21,693 nt of DNA from positions 1 through 21,693 of IMG/VR virus record IMGVR_UViG_3300025407_000149; one strand, written 5' to 3'. Below, in pieces: positions 2,710 through 20,414 of this stretch. A program made the translations under genes and the position numbers. The stretch's first letter is position 1. The number at the start of each line of letters is the position of its first letter. The DNA is from a virus. The notes beneath the pieces are model-generated. The model was given only the letters and a program-made list of their open reading frames with translations. It did no database searches and had not been told where the DNA came from.

Positions 2710-3058
2710 CAAATGACGGGAATCCACCCGTTATGCGTATTTCCTGAATGTTCTTGCTATCTTCTCGGGATTCCTTCTGATCTAGCCATTGTTTTCCAAG
2801 CCAAATCATCATCTGGATATTGCCCTTTTCTGCCGCTTCATATTGCCATCGTCGCAATGATTTCCTTCCGGGAGCGGACAATGCCTTTATGTAGTCTTCA
2901 ACGGTTACGTTATATTCCTCTTTGATTCGTCTTTCCAGAGTGGAATATGAAACGCGCATGATATTCGCAATTTCTTGTGCTGTGCATTGTATTAGGCACA
3001 TTTCTTCAATTTGAGCCCAATCCTCAGAATCGAATTCTATTTTTGTTTGGAATGGCAT
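2672..3058 (-). CDS. terS: Terminase small subunit (TerS)
   Basis: DNA-recognition partner of TerL that selects the packaging site. It has 128 residues. Residues about 24-48 form a helix-turn-helix (AQEIANIMRVSYSTLERRI). The segment RRWQYEAAEKGN followed by MMIWLGKQWLDQ (residues 69-94) is the pattern seen in this TerS family. The start at ATG 3058 is fixed by a perfect AGGAGG at 3065-3070, six bases upstream. The end overlaps the true TerL start by 38 bases, so the two are probably translationally coupled. The start also lies inside the 3' end of the preceding small gene (overlap 35 bases). Complete and intact. Confidence 0.9.
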   Translation of the reverse strand: MPFQTKIEFDSEDWAQIEEMCLIQCTAQEIANIMRVSYSTLERRIKEEYNVTVEDYIKALSAPGRKSLRRWQYEAAEKGNIQMMIWLGKQWLDQKESREDSKNIQEIRITGGFPSFDVTQESTRSDND

Positions 3059-3296
3059 CCCACTCCTCCTGTGTTATATCGTCTATTGAATTTCTTAACA
3101 TTTTGATTCTTTTTTTGTCAAGCTCAGAATGCTTTGGCAGAGAACACCACCAAGTCCAATCGCATCCTTCGTACCATTGCCCAATAACTGCTGGACCGTT
3201 GTCTGCTTTAAAAAGTATTTTCGTGCCTTTAGGTGGAAAAATATCATCAAAATGTTTCCACTCTGGCTTGTACTCTGACATATATCTTTCAGGCAT
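3024..3296 (-). CDS. Small phage protein of unknown function
   Basis: I do not recognise a family. The protein has about 90 residues and is rich in Trp, Lys and Asp (EGCDWTWWCSLPKHSEL), with a charged C-terminus (DDITQEEWDAIPNKNRIRF). The open frame extends up to 3356, but that part lies inside the HNH gene. ATG 3296 or ATG 3281 are better starts: the first overlaps the HNH stop by 8 bases, the second has GAAAG just upstream. It overlaps the TerS start by 35 bases, which argues for a real co-translated gene. Its DNA is AT-rich like the HNH gene next to it, so the two may have arrived together. Confidence 0.6.
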   Translation of the reverse strand: MPERYMSEYKPEWKHFDDIFPPKGTKILFKADNGPAVIGQWYEGCDWTWWCSLPKHSELDKKRIKMLRNSIDDITQEEWDAIPNKNRIRF

Positions 3297-3786
3297 TTTT
3301 TCTTTGAATCGGATTAAATGTGTGCAGATTTCTTTTTGCTTCTTCTCTAACCGCAATCGCTTCTTCTATCGTTTTAAATCTTCCAAGCCTTAGAGATTTT
3401 CCATTAACATCAATTTGCGCTCGCCACTTTTGCGTGAATTTTTCAAAGAAAACGCCAACGTGACCAGATGTGTTGTGTTTTGGAATTTTCATGTTCTGCA
3501 TATTTTGAGCGTGTGTGGCTAATCTCAAATTGCAAAATCTATTGTCTTCCCCATTTCCATTAATGTGATCCAAATCAGATATTGGATAATGACCAGTCAC
3601 ATATAACCAAGCCAACTTGTGTTCCCAATATTTTGTTCCATCAATGTTTATTTTTCTGTGATTTTTGTTATCACTACCTCCGGCTCTACTGCCTTCTGTT
3701 ATTCTGCCTTTTCTTATTTTCCATACAAATTCCCCAGAATCTTGGTTATAGGAAAGAATGGATTTTAGATATTCTTGAGTAATCAA
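3289..3786 (-). CDS. HNH endonuclease with AP2-like DNA-binding domain (homing type)
   Basis: Freestanding HNH nuclease of the kind that spreads between phage genomes by cutting alleles that lack it. The N-terminal half carries the HNH core: DLDHINGNGEDNRFCNLR (residues 71-88), with the His pair region at D73-H74 and the Asn residues at 82 and 86. The C-terminal half (about 105-150; GHVGVFFEKFTQKWRAQI, LGRFKTIEEAI) looks like an AP2/ERF-type DNA-binding fold, a common partner. The start is TTG 3786, chosen because GGAG sits six bases upstream (3792-3795). Base composition is clearly more AT-rich than the flanking terminase and primase genes, as expected for a recent arrival. It appears intact, at 165 residues. 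Confidence 0.9.
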   Translation of the reverse strand: MITQEYLKSILSYNQDSGEFVWKIRKGRITEGSRAGGSDNKNHRKINIDGTKYWEHKLAWLYVTGHYPISDLDHINGNGEDNRFCNLRLATHAQNMQNMKIPKHNTSGHVGVFFEKFTQKWRAQIDVNGKSLRLGRFKTIEEAIAVREEAKRNLHTFNPIQRKNA

Positions 3787-3802
3787 TTGAGTCTCCGTCG
3801 AG

Positions 3803-3862
3803 TTCGTAAAGCAGGGCGAGACTGCTAGGTTACGAATCTAGCGGGATGCCTCCCTGTCTCGC
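3803..3862 (-). other. Structured intergenic element with competing hairpins
   Basis: Two sets of inverted repeats overlap. Set one is a three-way junction: a 7-bp closing stem (3816-3822 with 3856-3862), a 5-bp hairpin (3824-3828 with 3838-3842) and a 4-bp hairpin (3843-3846 with 3851-3854). Set two is TTCGTAA plus AGCAG (3803-3814) pairing with CTGCT and TTACGAA (3822-3826 and 3830-3836). The two sets cannot form together. The element covers the last codons of the upstream cysteine gene and ends just before the HNH ribosome-binding site. The function is unknown. Confidence 0.45.
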
Positions 3863-4062
3863 AATAGTGTTTTAGTCTCCCACAGTTTGATTGTCAAGGT
3901 TCGGATTTCGTTCAGCGTGTCGGCGTCCAGTTCGCGTTCCCATCGAGCGAGCCAGTCCTGTCGATGTTGCTTCGAGGGTTGGTTGACCAGAAAACGGGCT
4001 CGGCAGCAGGGGTTTTTCATCTGGTAGATGGGTTTTTCTTGTTGGCACAGAATGCACGTCAT
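3838..4062 (-). CDS. Small cysteine-rich phage protein (possible zinc site)
   Basis: A 74-residue protein of a type I have seen in many phages without a known function. Cys3-x2-Cys6 and Cys19-Cys20 near the N-terminus (MTCILC, NPCCRARF) could bind a metal. The remainder, WLARWERELDADTLNEI, is a charged helix. The start at ATG 4062 keeps the first cysteine pair, but there is no Shine-Dalgarno next to it: the ATG abuts the 3' arm of an 11-bp GC hairpin (4063-4093). The only G-rich sequence upstream is in the other arm of that hairpin. The stop at 3838 lies within the structured element that precedes the HNH gene. Confidence 0.7.
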   Translation of the reverse strand: MTCILCQQEKPIYQMKNPCCRARFLVNQPSKQHRQDWLARWERELDADTLNEIRTLTIKLWETKTLLRDREASR

Positions 4063-4093
4063 GGGTGGGGGGTTCGCTGTTGACCCCCCACCC
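4063..4093 (-). promoter_or_regulatory. 11-bp GC hairpin abutting a start codon
   Basis: GGGTGGGGGGT at 4063-4073 is the exact inverted repeat of ACCCCCCACCC at 4083-4093, with a 9-base loop. On the minus-strand transcript it would fold directly against the ATG at 4060-4062 and leave no free ribosome-binding site. Both arms are copies of the G-tract repeat found elsewhere in this gap, so it may belong to the repeat region rather than act in translation. Confidence 0.5.
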
Positions 4094-4314
4094 TCTGAAT
4101 CCCGCGCCAGTCGTGGCTTAGAGCGATTTTGGGTGGGGGGTGGTGGGGGGTTGGCGTCAATCTCTATACCCTATGTATTTTCACTATATACCCTATATTT
4201 TAAAAAAATCTTTTTTTATAGAAAGCACCTACCACCCTCCACCCTAGACCTTTAATCTTTTATTTATCAATAACTTACTCAGGGTGGGGGGTTGGGTGTA
4301 GGGTGGGGGGTCTG
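4063..4314. repeat. G-tract repeat and AT-rich non-coding region, candidate replication origin
   Basis: This 252-bp gap has no gene. GGGTGGGGGG occurs on the plus strand at 4063, 4131, 4282 and 4301, with a shortened copy at 4142, and on the minus strand at 4084-4093. Related C-rich ACCCTCCACCCT lies at about 4232-4244. In the middle are two copies of TATACCCTAT (4165-4174 and 4187-4196) and an AT-rich run with long A and T tracts (4196-4225). Repeats around easily melted DNA next to a primase-helicase gene resemble a phage origin with iterons; the G runs could also form quadruplexes. The origin role is inference from position and composition. Confidence 0.5.
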
Positions 4315-6567
4315 TCATGAATTGGGCGGTTCATTGGGCAAACTGCCTTTTGGCTTCACACTAGGCACCTTGATGTATTTTGTGCCGTTTACGGCCTTTT
4401 GCCCCATGTGTCTCTTGGCAAGGTAGAGCCCCGCTGATGCCACTTCGCTCGGCGTGGGTCGGTCAATGCCCAGAGAAACAAGCAACATGGAGGCCGTTGA
4501 CCAATCCCAGAATTCCACTGGTTTGTCCCAGTCCATCATGGTTGCTAGACGTTCATGGATAGGGTTAGATGCGGTGAATGTCTCATTATGTGCATTGAGA
4601 TTTTCAATTTCATCCCTTTCCAAATAATGACTTTCGCCTTCCCGATATAAATGCAAAACCTCTGCCCATATTTGTTGCATGTTCAGATTATGGGTGTAAT
4701 TAATCTTTTCGCATTCAATCGTCCAGAATCGTCTATTTCCTGTGGGATCATGCAAAAACTCTTTGGGGTTTACTGATCCGAAAAAAACAGTTCTTCTGGC
4801 AAAATGTGAATCCTTTCTCGCATAGGGAAGACGAATCACGTCCAGCTTATTTGTGATGAATGCTTTTAGCTGTGATATTTCGGCTCGTTTGAATGTAGCA
4901 TCCAGTTCCCCCAATTCAACCAACCAAAACGAACACGCTTGCTTTACTGAGTCCTTGCTCTTGGGGTCAAGCATCAAACCGTCTTTAGTCAGGTCGAGAT
5001 TTTGAGGAACCAGATTCAAAAACCATTTGGTTTTTCCTAGAGATTGCTCTCCCTGAAGAACCAGAACCCCGGAAGCAGAAACCCCATCAGGAGAAAAAGC
5101 GGCTGCAATCGCTGAGATCATCCATTTGCGGATGAGCATCTCCTTGAGATCGTTGTCAGCGTTTCTTTTGCACCAAATGGTGTCATATAACTCAGGAAGT
5201 CTTTCCACGCCATCCCAAGGCTTAGATTCAATCCAAGTCACTACGGGGTTGTATTGGTTCTTGTCGGCAAGATAGGTGAGAAACTCGGGCACCTTGGGCG
5301 TGGGATAGTTGAATTTGGCGCACTCACTGATGATCCATGAAAGACTCGCGTTGTCCCGGTTGTCGGTTGTGAATCCTTGGCCGGGGATCAGGTAATCTTC
5401 GCGCTTTCTGATGATGTCATATCGAACAATGACACCGATTCGATTGAGGATTTCCCTGAGATTCTCGATGGAGGCAAGAGGTTTTCCCTTGACGGTGATA
5501 TCAATCAAGGGATCAAAATAGTTAATGGTGTCACGCGGCAGGAGTGTTTGGCTTTCTGTTCTTTGAGGCTCTGCCATCCTCGCCTCCGACTTCCTCGCCT
5601 CTGCCTTCCTCGGCTCCGGTTTCAAACCCCAATCTTTAGCCAGTTGCTTAACCGCTTTCTTGGCATCGCCGCCATGATCGTTATGGCAGTAGAAATCAAA
5701 CGGCGAAACGGGCCTTCCTGTTTCATCACTACAAAGCGAATCGCTCGCATGGTGAATCCAGCATCGGTTGTCATCGAAAACCACCACGCCGGGAATCTTG
5801 GTTCCTGAGTTGGGCGATAGATACCGCTTGCCGATCCGCTTGTATCCGTATTGGGTGAGCGTCGAATGAATGTCATTTTCTGAGTTATAACGCCCGATGA
5901 GATCGCTCCCTTCGTGCGGTGCCGATGCTGTGGGTTTAGGCTTTGGGGCATCTTCTGACCAAGGACAAATGCTCATGGCATTGGCTTTGAATATGTCCCA
6001 ATTCAGCCAGAAATTGAGAATGTCATCAGGGAGTTCGGTGAGCCCTGCTGATAGCTTGGTGATCCACTTGTAGGGCTTTTTGGTGTCAGGATGGATGGAT
6101 GGCGCGATAACGTCCTGAACCGCCCCGCCTCTGAGTTCAAAAACCGTGAAGGTTTTCTTATCAGGATTCTCCGGGTCGATTTCCTTCAGCGGCCATGCAA
6201 TGCTGTGGCGCGAGAGTTCGATACCCTCTGGGGCTCTGAACCAGATTCTGAATCGTTCCGGGTTACCGCACATGGATGGGCAAGCATCCCGAAGAGCGAA
6301 TATGTCGATGCCGAATTCAGAGAAAATTAGATTGGTCGCGTCAACGTCATCAACGTCGATCGACACGATATTGGATGGCCCGAGAACCGCGCCGATGTTT
6401 TGGTTTGGGTTTTTGGTGAAGTATTCTGTGGCCTGATCCGGGTCCGTAAAGTAGCCACCGGGTTTTTGCCATCCTTGTCCTGTGGGGCCTTTGGAGCCTC
6501 TAGGGATTGGAACGATAGCCAGTCCATACTCGCTGATGTAGCGAGTGACAATTTCTGCGAGAGTCAT
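4315..6567 (-). CDS. Primase-helicase: N-terminal prim-pol domain with C-terminal VirE-type P-loop ATPase
   Basis: Replication protein that would make primers and unwind DNA at the phage origin. The N-terminal part (about 1-190) is a bifunctional primase/polymerase fold: VPIPRGSKGPTGQGWQ, then IGAVLG and the catalytic acidic motif SIDVDDVD. The C-terminal part is a VirE/DUF5906-like superfamily III ATPase with Walker A GEQSLGKTKW (about residue 506), FWLVELGELDA as Walker B region, and GSVNPKEFLHDPTGNRRFW as sensor region. Between them is a charged linker with near-repeats (KAEARKSEARMAEPQ). I chose ATG 6567 (MTLAEIV) because GGTGG lies seven bases upstream; ATG 6591 and TTG 6594 have no such site. 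The stop borders the G-tract repeat region, so enzyme and putative origin are adjacent. Confidence 0.9.
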   Translation of the reverse strand: MTLAEIVTRYISEYGLAIVPIPRGSKGPTGQGWQKPGGYFTDPDQATEYFTKNPNQNIGAVLGPSNIVSIDVDDVDATNLIFSEFGIDIFALRDACPSMCGNPERFRIWFRAPEGIELSRHSIAWPLKEIDPENPDKKTFTVFELRGGAVQDVIAPSIHPDTKKPYKWITKLSAGLTELPDDILNFWLNWDIFKANAMSICPWSEDAPKPKPTASAPHEGSDLIGRYNSENDIHSTLTQYGYKRIGKRYLSPNSGTKIPGVVVFDDNRCWIHHASDSLCSDETGRPVSPFDFYCHNDHGGDAKKAVKQLAKDWGLKPEPRKAEARKSEARMAEPQRTESQTLLPRDTINYFDPLIDITVKGKPLASIENLREILNRIGVIVRYDIIRKREDYLIPGQGFTTDNRDNASLSWIISECAKFNYPTPKVPEFLTYLADKNQYNPVVTWIESKPWDGVERLPELYDTIWCKRNADNDLKEMLIRKWMISAIAAAFSPDGVSASGVLVLQGEQSLGKTKWFLNLVPQNLDLTKDGLMLDPKSKDSVKQACSFWLVELGELDATFKRAEISQLKAFITNKLDVIRLPYARKDSHFARRTVFFGSVNPKEFLHDPTGNRRFWTIECEKINYTHNLNMQQIWAEVLHLYREGESHYLERDEIENLNAHNETFTASNPIHERLATMMDWDKPVEFWDWSTASMLLVSLGIDRPTPSEVASAGLYLAKRHMGQKAVNGTKYIKVPSVKPKGSLPNEPPNS

Positions 6568-6592
6568 GCTCTTACCACCGAAGAAGCCCATC

Positions 6593-6651
6593 AAAAAAGA
6601 TGCGGCAGACGCAGATGGTGTGCGCCGTTCGGGAGCTACCCTAGCCGCATC
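6593..6651 (-). terminator. Terminator-like hairpin with T run before the primase gene
   Basis: On the minus strand GATGCGGC (6651-6644) pairs with GCCGCATC (6606-6599) over 8 bp and is followed at once by six T residues (6598-6593). The 37-base interior can form a GGG/CCC hairpin (about 6629-6639) and a CGCA/TGCG hairpin with a 7-base loop. It looks like an intrinsic terminator with a structured loop, or an attenuator controlling the primase-helicase. The T run ends one base before the codons at 6592-6594. Confidence 0.5.
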
Positions 6652-7380: not shown

Positions 7381-8783
7381 AAATACCCCCTAGCCGCACT
7401 AAAATCAGGTTTCGCCCCGGTCCTTGCGGCATAAACGTGCGCCGCCCATCCCGCAGGGTCTTTTAATCCTCGCCGCTTGCCGAGTTCCACCAAGTCTCTA
7501 AGCGTTCTTGCGCCTCCTTGCTCCTTTCGCTGTGTTCGACGGATGGACTCAATATCCAACTGTTCAAGATGTCCTTCATGGACCTCAATGACTCGGGGCT
7601 TTCCTTGGACGGGCTCACCGCAGGACGGACACTCGGTTGGACCGGGATTGAAGATGGCATAGCATTTCTCACATTGTTTAATTTTCATTTCATCCGGGTC
7701 AGCTTTTTTTCGCTTGCCCCTATTTGGATCGCCTTCAAGCGACCATTGACGCTCATCGTCTGGTAGACCATGCCGCGCATAATTCTGGACGTGATCCAGA
7801 ATAATCAGAAGATCCTTTCCATGCGCCTGACGGAATCCACGCCCATTCCCTTGACACCAGATAATGAGGGATGCCGTTGGCCTGAGCCATTGAACTGCTT
7901 CGATGGCGGGAACGTCTACGCCTTCAATCACCAATTCCACATTGGTCAAGACGAGCGTTTCTCCTGATTTCACTCGCGCAAGGATCGCCTGACGTTCTGC
8001 GGATGACGTGTTACCGTCAATATGTTCAGCGGTCACACCCGCTTGGTTGTAGGCTTCACAAACGTGTCTGGCATGATTCAGCGTAGCGCAAAACACCACG
8101 CATCGTTTGCCATTGGCGTGACGTTTGTAGTGGGCCACTGCATCCCCGGTAATGGAGGGTTTATCCATGATGGCTTCAATTTCTTCAGCCACATAGTCCC
8201 CCATGCGCTTCTTCAAGCTGGCCGTTTCAACCGGCTTGCTGATTCCGAAAATGACATACGGACACAGATATCCGTCACGGATCAGGCTGGCAACCGTAGG
8301 GCCTTCGACCATTGCCTGAAAGATATCGGATAGCCCTTTGCCATCCGTCCGTTGTGGTGTGGCTGTTAGCCCAACAATTCTTGCGTTCGGATAAGCCTCT
8401 AATATTTTTCGATAAGTCTGTGCGGCTGATCGATGCGCCTCATCAATGACAATCAGCCCAGGTTCGGCCACACGGTTCAATCGTCGTACCAATGTTTGCA
8501 CTGATGCTACCTGTACCGGCAGTTTTGTCATGGATCGCCCTGCCGCAATAACGCCATGCTCAACCTTCTGCTCCCACAATGCCCGACTGGTCTGCGCCAG
8601 TAGCGTATCCCGATGAACACAAAATATGGAACTGATGCCCCGACTGGCCGCCGTTGCCATCATGTGAACCGTCAGCGCGGTTTTCCCGGCTCCAGTGGGT
8701 GCCACCATCAGGACGGACTGGTGGTCGCGTAGGGATTGGCGGGCCTTGGTGATGAGGTCAGTTTGGTAGGGTCGAAGCTGCAT
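7377..8783 (-). CDS. DEAD/DEAH-box (SF2) helicase, SSL2/UvsW-like
   Basis: ATP-dependent DNA helicase of 468 residues. The domains in order are a Q-like motif (LRPYQ), Walker A APTGAGKT (28-35), DEAH box VIDEAHRSA (112-120), motif III LTATPQR (139-145), a second RecA fold with VVFCATLNHA, and motif VI GNGRGFRQ. A C-terminal zinc ribbon has CEKC and CPSC. The start ATG 8783 shares one base with the methyltransferase stop (TAATG), so the upstream GTG reading of five more residues is unlikely. Together with VRR-NUC it forms a coupled helicase-nuclease pair likely used in replication restart or recombination. Confidence 0.92.
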   Translation of the reverse strand: MQLRPYQTDLITKARQSLRDHQSVLMVAPTGAGKTALTVHMMATAASRGISSIFCVHRDTLLAQTSRALWEQKVEHGVIAAGRSMTKLPVQVASVQTLVRRLNRVAEPGLIVIDEAHRSAAQTYRKILEAYPNARIVGLTATPQRTDGKGLSDIFQAMVEGPTVASLIRDGYLCPYVIFGISKPVETASLKKRMGDYVAEEIEAIMDKPSITGDAVAHYKRHANGKRCVVFCATLNHARHVCEAYNQAGVTAEHIDGNTSSAERQAILARVKSGETLVLTNVELVIEGVDVPAIEAVQWLRPTASLIIWCQGNGRGFRQAHGKDLLIILDHVQNYARHGLPDDERQWSLEGDPNRGKRKKADPDEMKIKQCEKCYAIFNPGPTECPSCGEPVQGKPRVIEVHEGHLEQLDIESIRRTQRKEQGGARTLRDLVELGKRRGLKDPAGWAAHVYAARTGAKPDFSAARGYL

Positions 8784-9365
8784 TACATAAATCCCCACTG
8801 CTCTGCCATTGCGTCTGCGATGCCTTGATAGGTCGCGGATCTTAATTTACCTCTGTCCGCTGATGGCGATAAATAATGCAGCCGTTCCCTTTGGCTTTTA
8901 GGAAATGCCATCATTTCTTGATGCACATCATTGGTTGGCAACAGGGGCCTTAGATTCTTCAGCCACAGGCAGGTCGTTTTCTGTTCGGCGTGACCAAACA
9001 TATAGGGGTGAATAATCTGGTTGGGTTTGCGCCAAATTTTCGACATGATGCACACCGGATTTTCAATTGCAATCTTCGGAATGTCTGCCTTGGCCAGTTT
9101 CATAAAAAACGACACACCGGCTTGCTGTCTACCATCCAGACGTTTTTCCTTAAACCATGCGGCACCGCTGACAGCAATATCTGTGCAAGGCGGGTGTGCA
9201 ATCATCAAGTCCCAAGGGTAATCCAGAACATCCCTCACATCCCCTTGGTAATGTGGTCCTGGCAATTCAGTTGGTAGCAAGTCACAACTCATCGCTTCGT
9301 GCCCCCCCCCTGATAAACGCATCCCGAACCACGCCGGAATACTCACAGGCTACTAGAACGCGCAT
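8783..9365 (-). CDS. C5-methyltransferase-like phage protein, frameshifted at a G9 tract
   Basis: Related to phage proteins annotated as DNA cytosine methyltransferases. The true start is ATG 9365 (MRVLVACEYSGVVRDAFI, the SAM-binding motif I region), sharing a base with the stop of the HTH gene. This frame runs into a G9 tract (9302-9310) and then stops (TGA at about 9288-9290). The rest (HEAMSCDLLPTELPGPHYQG onward) is in the next frame. Eight G residues would join them. The second part has AHPPCTDIAVSG, a PPC motif comparable to the catalytic PC motif, and AIENPV, comparable to the ENV motif. The full product would be about 194 residues, shorter than typical C5 enzymes, so activity is not certain. 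It could be a slippage-controlled gene or a sequence error. Confidence 0.75.
9302..9310. repeat. C9/G9 homopolymer tract inside the methyltransferase gene
   Basis: Nine C residues on the plus strand (G on the coding strand). Nine places the gene out of frame; eight (or eleven) would restore it. Tracts of this kind slip during replication and are also a common place for sequencing errors. Confidence 0.85.
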
Positions 9366-9637: not shown

Positions 9638-10426
9638 ATGATTATCGAAGACATGGAAAACGCCGCTTATCACGCGGCTGAAGGCATCAGCAATTCGGGG
9701 CTGTCCTTGATTGCTCGATCCCCGGCTCATTACAAGTTCAAGCCACCGTCTGAAGCCACCCGATCTATGGAGATGGGTACTGCGATTCACACGGCGATCT
9801 TGGAGCCTGATCGATTTGCGTCCCATTACGTTCTATTGAAGAACATCACTGATCGTCGTTCATCGGCTTACAAGGATGCTTGCAAAATCCATACGTCCGA
9901 ACGTGTCCTCACTGGCACTGAAGCTGACAAAGTTCAGGGCATGGCTGAATCTATTTTGGGCAACCCCCACGCTCAGGCATTGATCGCACATTCCGAAGCC
10001 CGTAAGGAATTATCGGTATTTACCCAAGACCCGGAAACAGGTGTCACAGTGAAGTGCCGGTTTGACCTGATGACTCCGGGCAAGGCGCTTGATCTTAAAA
10101 AGACACAGGACGCCCGTCCTGAAGCATTTGCCAAGTCTGTAGCCAATTATCGCTACATGGTTCAAGCGGCTTTTTACAGCGATGTTTGGGAATGGGAAAC
10201 CGGCGAAAAGCTGGATGCTTTTGGTTTCCTGTGCGTCGAGGAAGAAATGCCTCACGCATCGGCTATCTATGTTCTGGATGACGAAGCAATGGACTACGGC
10301 AGGAAGCTGTATCGGCGTGATTTAAATCGCTACGCTGAATGCGTCGAATCAGGTCACTGGCCATCTATTGATTCCGCGCCTCAAGTTCTGGCGTTGCCGC
10401 AGTGGATTTATAAGGAGGCGGTATGA
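9638..10426 (+). CDS. RecE-like 5'-3' exonuclease (PDDEXK family)
   Basis: Double-strand DNA exonuclease that makes 3' single-strand tails for annealing by RecT. It has 262 residues, matching the nuclease domain of exonuclease VIII (PDDEXK_10-like) without the long N-terminal part of E. coli RecE. Visible motifs are SNSGLSLIARSPAHYK, GTAIHTAILEP (His51), VKCRFDLM (D143), ALDLKKTQDA (D152 and K154), and YMVQAAFYSDV (Q176). The start ATG 9638 has AGGAG at 9627-9631. It is first in the rightward operon and overlaps the next gene by four bases. RecT and an SSB-like protein follow, forming a single-strand annealing recombination set. Confidence 0.9.
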   Translation: MIIEDMENAAYHAAEGISNSGLSLIARSPAHYKFKPPSEATRSMEMGTAIHTAILEPDRFASHYVLLKNITDRRSSAYKDACKIHTSERVLTGTEADKVQGMAESILGNPHAQALIAHSEARKELSVFTQDPETGVTVKCRFDLMTPGKALDLKKTQDARPEAFAKSVANYRYMVQAAFYSDVWEWETGEKLDAFGFLCVEEEMPHASAIYVLDDEAMDYGRKLYRRDLNRYAECVESGHWPSIDSAPQVLALPQWIYKEAV

Positions 10427-10668
10427 CTATCCAATACGAATCCGTTCAATACGAACCCGTTCAATACGAACCTCAGCCAAACGCCGTAGTCGATGCAGGG
10501 CGTGACTATCTTGTCACCATCAAAGCCATCGTTGATTCACACATCCTGCCCCCGGCAACGAACGTGGAATTAGCCGGTGCGCTAGGTGGACTGAGTAGCA
10601 TCGTTGATCTGTATGAAACCTTGTATCACGATTATTGGAGGTCTCAGTATGAGCAATGCAATCGCTGA
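10423..10668 (+). CDS. Small protein between RecE-like and RecT genes, with QYExV repeats
   Basis: I do not recognise the function. The 81-residue protein begins with three near-identical five-residue repeats (QYESV, QYEPV, QYEP) encoded by 15-bp tandem repeats at about 10432-10476. The remainder is helical (VTIKAIVDSHILPPATNVEL, LSSIVDLYETLYHDYW). The ATG overlaps the exonuclease stop (ATGA) and GGAGG precedes it, so expression is clear. The end overlaps the RecT start by 20 bases. Position suggests a helper in recombination, or a gene simply carried along. Confidence 0.75.
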   Translation: MTIQYESVQYEPVQYEPQPNAVVDAGRDYLVTIKAIVDSHILPPATNVELAGALGGLSSIVDLYETLYHDYWRSQYEQCNR

Positions 10669-11446
10669 AGTCCGTTCCCAGTTGATGACGATGGGCAGTG
10701 AGTTCGGCAAGGTATTGCCCGATCACGTCACTATCGAAAAGTTCCAGCGGGTCACGCTAACCGCTTTACAGCGCAGTCCTGATCTTCTGGCGTGTGACAG
10801 GAAGTCACTGTTTGAATCCGTCATGGCTTGCGCTCAGGATGGCTTGATCCCGGATGGCCGGGAAGCCGCATTAACCAAGTTCGGTAACAAGGTGGCTTAT
10901 CTTCCGATGGTGGCCGGTATCTTGAAAAAGGTACGCCAGTCCGGGGAGCTGTCAACGATCACCGCTCAGGTGGTTTATGAGGCCGACCAGTTCCGCTATT
11001 GGATTGATGACCAAGGCGAACACCTTGACCATCACCCGGAGATCATTGGCGATCCGGGGCAACCCAAAGCGGTCTACGCAATGGCGCGGACTACGGATGG
11101 TGGCGTATACATCGAAGTCCTGCGGATGGCCGATATCCAGAAAATTCGATCCGCATCAAGGGGCGGCACGATCTGGAATCAATGGCAGGATCAGATGATG
11201 AAGAAATCGGCTATCCGTCGATTAGCCAAGCGTTTGCCTATGTCTACCGATGTGGAATCCGTCATCAGTCGCGATGACCAGTTCTATCCCTATCAGGACA
11301 CGCCCAAGCAAGCGACCAAGGCTGTTGAGGCCCTGACTGTCACCAAGGCCGATATTGTCGATCCCGACACGGGAGAGGTGACGGAGATTAATGTTGTAAA
11401 GACTGAAGAGACCAATCAAGAGACCACAGAAGGAGAATTGTTTTAA
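10649..11446 (+). CDS. recT: RecT-family single-strand annealing protein
   Basis: Coats single-stranded DNA left by the exonuclease and promotes annealing and strand exchange. It has 265 residues from ATG 10649 (MSNAIAEVRSQL), fixed by GGAGG eight bases upstream; the open frame goes further upstream but inside the previous gene. RecT features are SPDLLACDRKSLFESVMACA, the AQDGLIPDGREAAL motif (a RecT hallmark), NKVAYLPMVAGILKKVRQSG and MMKKSAIRRLAKRLP. The acidic tail (PDTGEVTEINVVKTEE) is typical. The stop shares one base with the next ATG, coupling it to the SSB-like gene. Confidence 0.93.
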   Translation: MSNAIAEVRSQLMTMGSEFGKVLPDHVTIEKFQRVTLTALQRSPDLLACDRKSLFESVMACAQDGLIPDGREAALTKFGNKVAYLPMVAGILKKVRQSGELSTITAQVVYEADQFRYWIDDQGEHLDHHPEIIGDPGQPKAVYAMARTTDGGVYIEVLRMADIQKIRSASRGGTIWNQWQDQMMKKSAIRRLAKRLPMSTDVESVISRDDQFYPYQDTPKQATKAVEALTVTKADIVDPDTGEVTEINVVKTEETNQETTEGELF

Positions 11447-19310: not shown

Positions 19311-20414
19311 TTAAGACCAGATCGCGTGGGACGGTTCGGTGGAATACCACCCTTTGTGGTTCAAATTTTCGACCTGTCGAAAGATTTTGTCCATCTGAGC
19401 GCCAACTTCCTCCAGGGAATACTTGTTCCGGGCTGTGGATGCAATCGCCCGGCGGTTCAATGAAGGCACGTTTCGAACAGCTTCAAGCCAATCGCCCAAG
19501 GTTTTGCATCGATAGCCGTTATATCCATGCACAACGGTCTCTGAGAAGGCTCCAAAGTCAGAAGCGATCAAAGGCGTACCGCAGAGCATCCCTTCGACTC
19601 CCGCGCCTCCAAAAGGCTCACAGTAGCGCGTAGGCATCAATAGGGCGTAAGCGTTGCGGAGAAGTTCGGATCGGTCCTTGCCGGTGACAGGCGGCTCGAC
19701 GGTCATATTGATCGGAGCGTCCTGCATAAAGTGATCCAGCCATTCCTTGTTGCCTTCACCTACCAAGCGAACGGGCATATCAACGTGACGGGCAATCTCC
19801 TTGATGTGATGCAGTCCCTTGCAATCGATCAGTCGGCCAAAATAGAGTAGGTACTTCCCATCATCGTAAGAGGGCAACCAATCCTCAATGTCGTACCCCA
19901 TCGGGCAGACCCATTGATAGTCATTCCCCGCGACCTGTTCCTTGCCTTGATGCCATGACCACCACTGATAGGTTTCATAGACCCGAAGCGGAAACGCGCA
20001 TTGGGTGTAGCCAATCCCAATCTCTACATGATGAGCATTTGGAAAACGTTGACCCAAATCTGAATGAGTGATGCCAAAAGGATGGCAAATAATATCGCCA
20101 TCGCGAACGCGCATAGATAGCTCGGGAACCAGTCGTTTACAAAATTCTCGATACAGACTCGAATCCGTTGAAGCGGCCTCATGGGGCTGTTCTTCTTTGT
20201 AGAGGGCCTTGAGCCGTTCAAATGTTTCCGCATCCAGAATTTCAACGTGTTCACTTGATTGGGCCTCTGTCCCTGCATTGCTGTATTCGATGACCTCATG
20301 ACCAAAGGGAAGCATCATCTTCCCAAATCTAACGACGCGACCCGTGAAAGCACAATGTGAAAAATCTGCCGCAGGGATTGTATGAAACAACCCCAATAGG
20401 TGTAAACGAGCCAT
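19311..20414 (-). CDS. GT4-family glycosyltransferase
   Basis: Retaining glycosyltransferase that moves a sugar from a nucleotide donor; it has 367 residues. The C-terminal Rossmann half is clear: LLYFGRLIDCKGLHHIKEIA (about 189-208), VRLVGEG, and the donor-site E-x7-E motif in RYCEPFGGAGVEGMLCGTPL (E266 and E274). The N-terminal half is less typical and carries several His and Cys residues. GGGAGG six bases upstream fixes ATG 20414. Lying inside the tail operon, it might modify a tail protein, the phage DNA or the host surface; the sequence does not tell which. Intact. Confidence 0.85.
   Translation of the reverse strand: MARLHLLGLFHTIPAADFSHCAFTGRVVRFGKMMLPFGHEVIEYSNAGTEAQSSEHVEILDAETFERLKALYKEEQPHEAASTDSSLYREFCKRLVPELSMRVRDGDIICHPFGITHSDLGQRFPNAHHVEIGIGYTQCAFPLRVYETYQWWSWHQGKEQVAGNDYQWVCPMGYDIEDWLPSYDDGKYLLYFGRLIDCKGLHHIKEIARHVDMPVRLVGEGNKEWLDHFMQDAPINMTVEPPVTGKDRSELLRNAYALLMPTRYCEPFGGAGVEGMLCGTPLIASDFGAFSETVVHGYNGYRCKTLGDWLEAVRNVPSLNRRAIASTARNKYSLEEVGAQMDKIFRQVENLNHKGWYSTEPSHAIWS

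Follow-up and report, generated by a model that had tools for sequence, protein, structure and literature searches.

The window, the whole 21,693-bp stretch of viral DNA analysed, carries a Prim-Pol/VapE primase-helicase gene on its minus strand (4315-6594). The encoded protein, the proposed initiator, comprises 759 aa from the listed TTG start. Its Prim-Pol domain (PF09250, E 1.6e-19) spans residues 18-190 and is encoded at 6025-6543 (-), and its VapE-like helicase domain (PF05272, E 4.2e-55) spans residues 456-674, encoded at 4573-5229 (-). The C-terminal tail, residues 675-759, is encoded at 4318-4572 (-). A gap of 252 bp (4063-4314) separates the stop codon of this gene from the start codon at which the next ORF (3838-4062, -) begins. 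The preliminary description had reported non-coding DNA with A/T-rich stretches after a prim-pol/VirE gene, which was confirmed with two tracts of 77% AT (4161-4226) and 78% AT (4245-4281). Another minus-strand ORF at 3289-3786, which by motif we take to be HNH-endonuclease-like, is located in a stretch (about 3040-3869) without a match in the near-identical contig L006. This stretch is possibly a mobile insertion. Exonuclease VIII-like and RecT-like genes (PHROGs) were present at 9638-11446 (+), divergent from the replication genes. The ORFs at 8783-9346 (-) and 19311-20414 (-) had PHROG matches annotated as DNA methyltransferase and glycosyltransferase, respectively.

The gap held five exact copies of GGGTGGGGGGT. 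Four were in plus orientation, at 4063-4073, immediately beside the start codon of the following ORF, at 4131, at 4282-4292 and at 4301-4311, and one was inverted, at 4083-4093 (-). The earlier count of at least four direct copies and one inverted copy beside the primase gene was therefore reproduced with exact matches. No further exact copy was found in the rest of the 21,693-bp record, and 1000 dinucleotide shuffles yielded 0.006 exact copies on average and one at most. Allowing up to two mismatches, 20 matches were detected in the window, 11 of them in 4063-4311, compared with an average of 5.3 and a maximum of 11 in 100 shuffles. The near copies included one with a single mismatch at 4141-4151, overlapping the exact copy at 4131, two with two mismatches at 4289-4299 and 4294-4304, and an inverted pair at 4227-4244 (-), consisting of 4234-4244 with one mismatch and 4227-4237 with two. 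The best repeat score of the window was 13.5; the highest of 40 shuffled windows was 7.4. The AT-rich core at 4161-4226, a candidate melting region, includes a pair of TATACCCTAT copies (4165-4174 and 4187-4196), which the preliminary description had also listed. The pair is real, yet weak by itself, because two matches with up to one mismatch occurred in 9 of 100 shuffles. It differs from the iteron and was kept in L006, where the array region as a whole was retained with small differences.

Arrays of the same form recurred behind related enzymes: copies in both orientations and an AT-rich core were located just after the enzyme gene, and the repeated word was specific to the clade. The arrays were located by a blind scan along the entire length of each locus, which took the 7- or 8-mer with the greatest excess within any 500 bp over a first-order background. 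The strongest repeat of a locus of about 13 kb was positioned at -180 to +520 of the enzyme stop in 74 of 80 Prim-Pol-set loci (expected 4.7) and in 60 of 83 VapE-set loci (expected 6.4). For other ORFs of at least 200 aa in the same loci, the values were 26/930 and 17/506, respectively. The six Prim-Pol-set loci without this placement were L016, L017, L020, L031, L091 and L093. The usual array was present in L020, L031 and L093, where the ORF taken ends elsewhere, and no array above the threshold used was found in L016 and L017. The array was not the top repeat in 23 of the 83 VapE-set loci. The Prim-Pol set comprised 82 loci after removal of L015 and L085, which duplicate the contigs of L006 and L007, and of L076, truncated by its contig end, and after addition of L175 and L176; L075 and L078, with less than 520 bp downstream, were omitted from the count of 80. 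From the VapE set, L095 and L102 were left out as duplicates, and the count of 83 omits L107 and L117, which were too short downstream, and L007. The scan of genome contigs yielded only two loci.

Locus L007, with an enzyme 47% identical to that of the window, carried another word, CAGTGCC/GGCACTG, at the same position around AT-rich DNA. Words seen among the relatives were TGTTGGGT, TGTAAGGT, TGTCGGAA, AGTGCAAC, AGGGACAC, GGGTAATA, GGGGTCA and others. Of the 34 dereplicated VapE-set arrays, 33 had iterons in both orientations, and the word of the remaining array is a palindrome. In 28 of the 34 VapE-set loci, the AT content of the most AT-rich 40 bp of the array was reached by at most 10% of the locus stretches of the same length; the same was observed for 11 of 13 Prim-Pol cluster representatives. 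Conservation of the repeats beside related primases thus holds for the form of the array, and the exact repeat recurred in this position only in the near-identical contig L006/L190. Two GGGTGGGGGGT copies spaced by 1-30 bases were detected in 34 IMG/VR stretches. Since a VapE/Prim-Pol gene adjoins the array only in L190, which is the L006 contig, occurrences of GGGTGGGGGGT outside the phage were rejected as evidence for the system. L181 and L193 showed weak, distant DUF5906-type matches, and the remaining 31 stretches had no VapE/Prim-Pol or DUF5906-type match.

Other repeats were observed away from this position. About 1.35 kb beyond its primase stop, Pseudomonas phage PPpW-3 (L012:6501-6900) has 17 copies of CGCAGCC in 400 bp, probably a repetitive coding stretch. 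Seven copies of GGTGACA in Burkholderia phage Mica (L013:8035-8222) were iteron-like but located about 2.8 kb past the VapE-type enzyme. A terminase-like ORF (L189:1493-4060) is preceded by tandem GTACGCAT repeats and by four copies of ACCCCCCACCC; an internal stretch of it (CIAGDTPIHT ... THNC) resembles an intein.

Judged from enzyme comparisons, the repeat follows the helicase half of the enzyme and not the primase half, as shown by three natural chimeras and two replacements of the primase type. In L074, the Prim-Pol half is closely similar to its counterpart in Pseudomonas phage Lodos (L014, word ACCCAACA), the helicase half resembles that of L018, and the word is the word of L018. In a table of 2926 pairs from 77 Prim-Pol-set loci, omitting L016, L017 and L091 (no called word) and L020 and L093 (short C-halves), the word was common to 0 of 45 pairs with an N-half identity of at least 80% and a C-half identity below 45%. 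It was common to all 413 pairs with a C-half identity of at least 80% and to 1934 of 1943 pairs at 60-80%. These pair counts are not independent trials, as they go back to about three separate chimera events (L074; L018; L019/L022/L052). The primase itself was replaced in two further groups. L111 has a Prim-Pol domain by Pfam, and L116 and L118 were assigned to the TOPRIM type with a profile derived from five phage enzymes in which Pfam identifies Toprim domains. The N-half of L111 showed no similarity to those of L116 and L118, but the word GGGGTCA was common to all three and the helicase, tail and array were nearly the same. Likewise, AGGGACAC was common to L132, L137 and L150 with Prim-Pol and L141 with TOPRIM; 31 of the 86 N-halves in the VapE set were not classable.

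Within the VapE helicases, the last approximately 85 residues are the best predictor of the word by sequence identity. An array was called in 49 of 86 VapE-set loci, and the 37 loci without an array above threshold were omitted from the pair analyses. Segment identity predicted a common word with an AUC of 0.918 for residues 731-759, 0.873 for 701-730 and 0.756 for 601-674. For pairs at a core identity of 55-70%, the three tail segments reached 0.81-0.91, compared with 0.47 for residues 601-674. In the dereplicated set of 34 loci, at a core identity of at least 65%, tail minus core identity had a median of -0.14 among the 26 pairs with a common word, compared with -0.30 among the 120 pairs with different words (Mann-Whitney p 2e-9; label-permutation p <= 0.001). 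The segment preceding the helicase had a weak effect (p 0.03). Eight of 405 columns, 674, 700, 708, 715, 719, 723, 734 and 736, had a z above 5, and five of them fall in the predicted recognition helix or wing. The mean column z was 2.91 for the third helix, 2.35 for the wing and 0.33 for the helicase core. Enzymes with the word AGGGACAC have, for example, QGEATRAAH or QSEATRAAH in the third helix. In the DUF5906 family (69 loci), word variants overlap inside loci and were not mappable to the tail; the top segment was located at residues 411-450 with an AUC of 0.795.

The fold of the tail was predicted with an AlphaFold model of the C-half of the enzyme, calculated from 64 sequences with a mean pLDDT of 90.8. 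The tail follows the order helix-strand-helix-helix-strand-strand (model residues 323-388), from which it was named a predicted winged helix. The third helix, model residues 360-372 with an offset of 355, corresponds to residues 715-727 (4414-4452, -) and is the predicted recognition helix. The closest solved structure by sequence and fold was PDB 7pds, PriRep1 with dsDNA (Z 26.7, rmsd 3.9, 379 residues; sequence E 9.5e-25). It was followed by the C-terminal region of NrS-1 (Z 14.5, rmsd 5.7, 325 residues) and the SaPI5 primase-helicase (Z 12.4, rmsd 6.2, 343 residues). The adjacent enzyme had been suggested as the initiator. This idea gained from the tracking between the repeat and a predicted DNA-binding tail at the C-terminus, but the primase domain is not the determinant.

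Tail and array are adjacent in the DNA, which inflates their covariation, and some covariation is expected without contact. Over pairs that are not mutually independent, a common word was predicted with an AUC of 0.94 by the tail, 0.885 by the downstream gene, 0.77 by the core and 0.72 by the N-half. Linkage alone is disfavoured because of a local exchange and because of same-word pairs with unrelated downstream DNA. Nucleotide identity between L104 and L111 was about 25-60% over the array and the final 180 nt or so of the gene, and mostly 90-100% from +217 on, so by alignment the tail and array alone are swapped between otherwise similar flanks. L133 and L146 showed a similar but milder drop and recovery of identity. 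Pairs with the same word had similar identities in tail and core also in cases of unrelated downstream DNA; for L137 and L148, the core had 0.88, the tail 0.85 and the downstream DNA 43% identity. Exceptions were detected in both directions. The tails of L168 and of L160, L165 and L170 are as similar as their cores, and the words differ, though they are close. L159 and L166 have a word in common at 47% tail identity.

Taken together, 4063-4314 is very likely the replication origin of the phage, an iteron array that would be bound by the adjacent Prim-Pol/VapE protein through its C-terminal winged helix. The protein, encoded by the gene that ends at the array, would bind the repeats at 4063-4311 and assemble as a ring helicase. 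The ring helicase would melt the AT-rich core, and the Prim-Pol domain would prime and perhaps extend the exposed strands. Binding, melting, priming and firing of the origin are envisaged partly by analogy with published work on SaPI Rep, SCCmec Cch2 and NrS-1. Computation showed the sequence of the array and its position, the recurrence of such arrays behind related enzymes, and covariation with the recognition helix. The origin suggested in the preliminary description is thus well supported by the recurring architecture and the tracking of repeat and tail, but the word is not conserved, the primase domain does not determine it and a quadruplex is not shared. The GC skew gave no support. Its cumulative minimum was at about 9.5-9.75 kb, where the gene orientation flips, and not at 4.1-4.3 kb. 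This minimum coincides with the divergence at the exonuclease VIII-like and RecT-like genes.

The array might instead be an operator bound by the tail, autoregulating the replication gene or controlling the downstream ORF, with replication starting elsewhere. Its position between two co-oriented ORFs, abutting the next start codon, would suit such a function, and covariation with the tail points to a binding relation and says nothing on an origin. We consider an operator unlikely. The array is placed after and not before its own gene, a sigma-70-type promoter was not found in 3900-4500, and the AT-rich core and the layout in both orientations were retained across the relatives. The equivalent site in SaPIs is reported as the origin (PMC7581432).

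Very unlikely is a role of the repeats as template priming sites for the Prim-Pol domain, comparable to GTG(A/G) or TTTGGTTA for the NrS-1 polymerase and GTG for pRN1 ORF904. GTGG is located inside the iteron and is described as an efficient NrS-1 priming motif (PMC8718748). Nevertheless, the word differs between enzymes whose Prim-Pol halves are nearly identical (0 of 45 pairs in common) and is unchanged where a TOPRIM-type primase replaces Prim-Pol. Recognition by Prim-Pol via GTG, an early idea since the first arrays had GTG, was rejected as GTG/CAC occurs in only 17 of 34 words and the words vary with a constant Prim-Pol half. For TTTGGTTA, the window, possibly a genome fragment, had 0 matches. 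Priming may still occur at some copies once the array is opened.

Recognition of the origin as a stem-loop and not by iterons, as proposed for pRN1 and phage BIP-1, appears highly improbable. The array strand of the window folded better than shuffles (z -3.0), and z was below -2 in 18 of 34 representative arrays compared with 7 of 34 control stretches, but the hairpins arise from the inverted iterons themselves, 16 of the 34 arrays fell short of z -2 and the tail follows the word, not the fold. For BIP-1, PMC4234260 proposes a stem-loop and dismisses iterons. In the BIP-1 record (L177:2608-2711; record approximately 26,607-26,710), 467 bp past the stop of the Prim-Pol enzyme, two GCCTCGTTT copies face two inverted copies with an AT-rich core between them, forming a 48-nt inverted repeat. 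The BIP-1 stem-loop read as an origin may be a set of inverted iterons. The formation of quadruplexes from the G runs, as suggested earlier, is the least credible of these alternatives and was rejected as a shared function because the quadruplex-type pattern, although it begins at 4282-4289 in the window, was seen in just 5 of the 34 array regions of dereplicated relatives, whose words include AGTGCAAC, TGTTGGGT and GGGTAATA.

Returning to the iteron origin, a wider reading is conceivable but tentative. In phages with fused primase-VapE enzymes, the C-terminal winged helix and the adjacent array may form the specificity cassette of one common modular initiation system. This cassette would be exchanged between phages irrespective of Prim-Pol or TOPRIM, and a few residues of the recognition helix and wing, at about 715, 719, 723, 734 and 736 of the window enzyme, would serve as a readable origin code. 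If so, origins and incompatibility groups of many uncultured phages would be predictable from sequence. To our knowledge, origins are unmapped in most phages. If the iteron origin proposed here is correct, the origin would be readable from the sequence in phages with fused Prim-Pol-VapE, TOPRIM-VapE or Prim-Pol-DUF5906 enzymes. The domain for origin recognition would be named, and natural swaps of tail plus array would provide ready tests of initiator specificity and replicon compatibility. An initiator helicase with downstream iterons is already known as a kind. The open-licence papers searched gave no account of iteron arrays following Prim-Pol/VapE genes in phages. Also apparently unreported there are phage examples in which Prim-Pol or TOPRIM is fused to such a helicase and the words differ by clade, the evolutionary mapping of specificity onto the winged helix, and the exchange of a tail together with its array.

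Several known systems resemble the window in part. The NrS-1 polymerase is also a phage Prim-Pol fused to a ring helicase (C-half Z 14.5). Two copies of an 8-nt priming sequence are described for it (PMC7102993), whereas the window has a dense iteron array without TTTGGTTA. The pRN1 protein ORF904 combines Prim-Pol, helicase and winged-helix parts; the origin region closely follows its gene, and this origin is given as a stem-loop of about 100 nt without iterons (PMC4234260). The window matches this arrangement with Prim-Pol, helicase, a predicted winged helix and a putative origin region just 3' of the gene; however, it has plain iterons, and its stem potential (z -3.0) is uneven among the relatives. 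P4 alpha, according to the same source (PMC4234260), likewise fuses primase and helicase, and its C-terminal winged helix binds repeats of the origin. Its primase is of the TOPRIM type, in contrast to the PF09250 Prim-Pol of the window. In SaPI Rep and SCCmec Cch2, iterons that immediately follow the helicase gene are reported to be recognised by the C-terminal domain of the protein (PMC7581432). Both share with the window a VapE/D5-type helicase and, immediately after its gene, short iterons together with AT-rich DNA, and SaPI Rep has a C-terminal DNA-binding winged helix that corresponds to the predicted fold of the window enzyme. Unlike SaPI Rep, the enzyme of the window has Prim-Pol fused ahead of the helicase and belongs to a tailed-phage genome, and among its relatives the primase part can be TOPRIM and the iteron word varies by clade.
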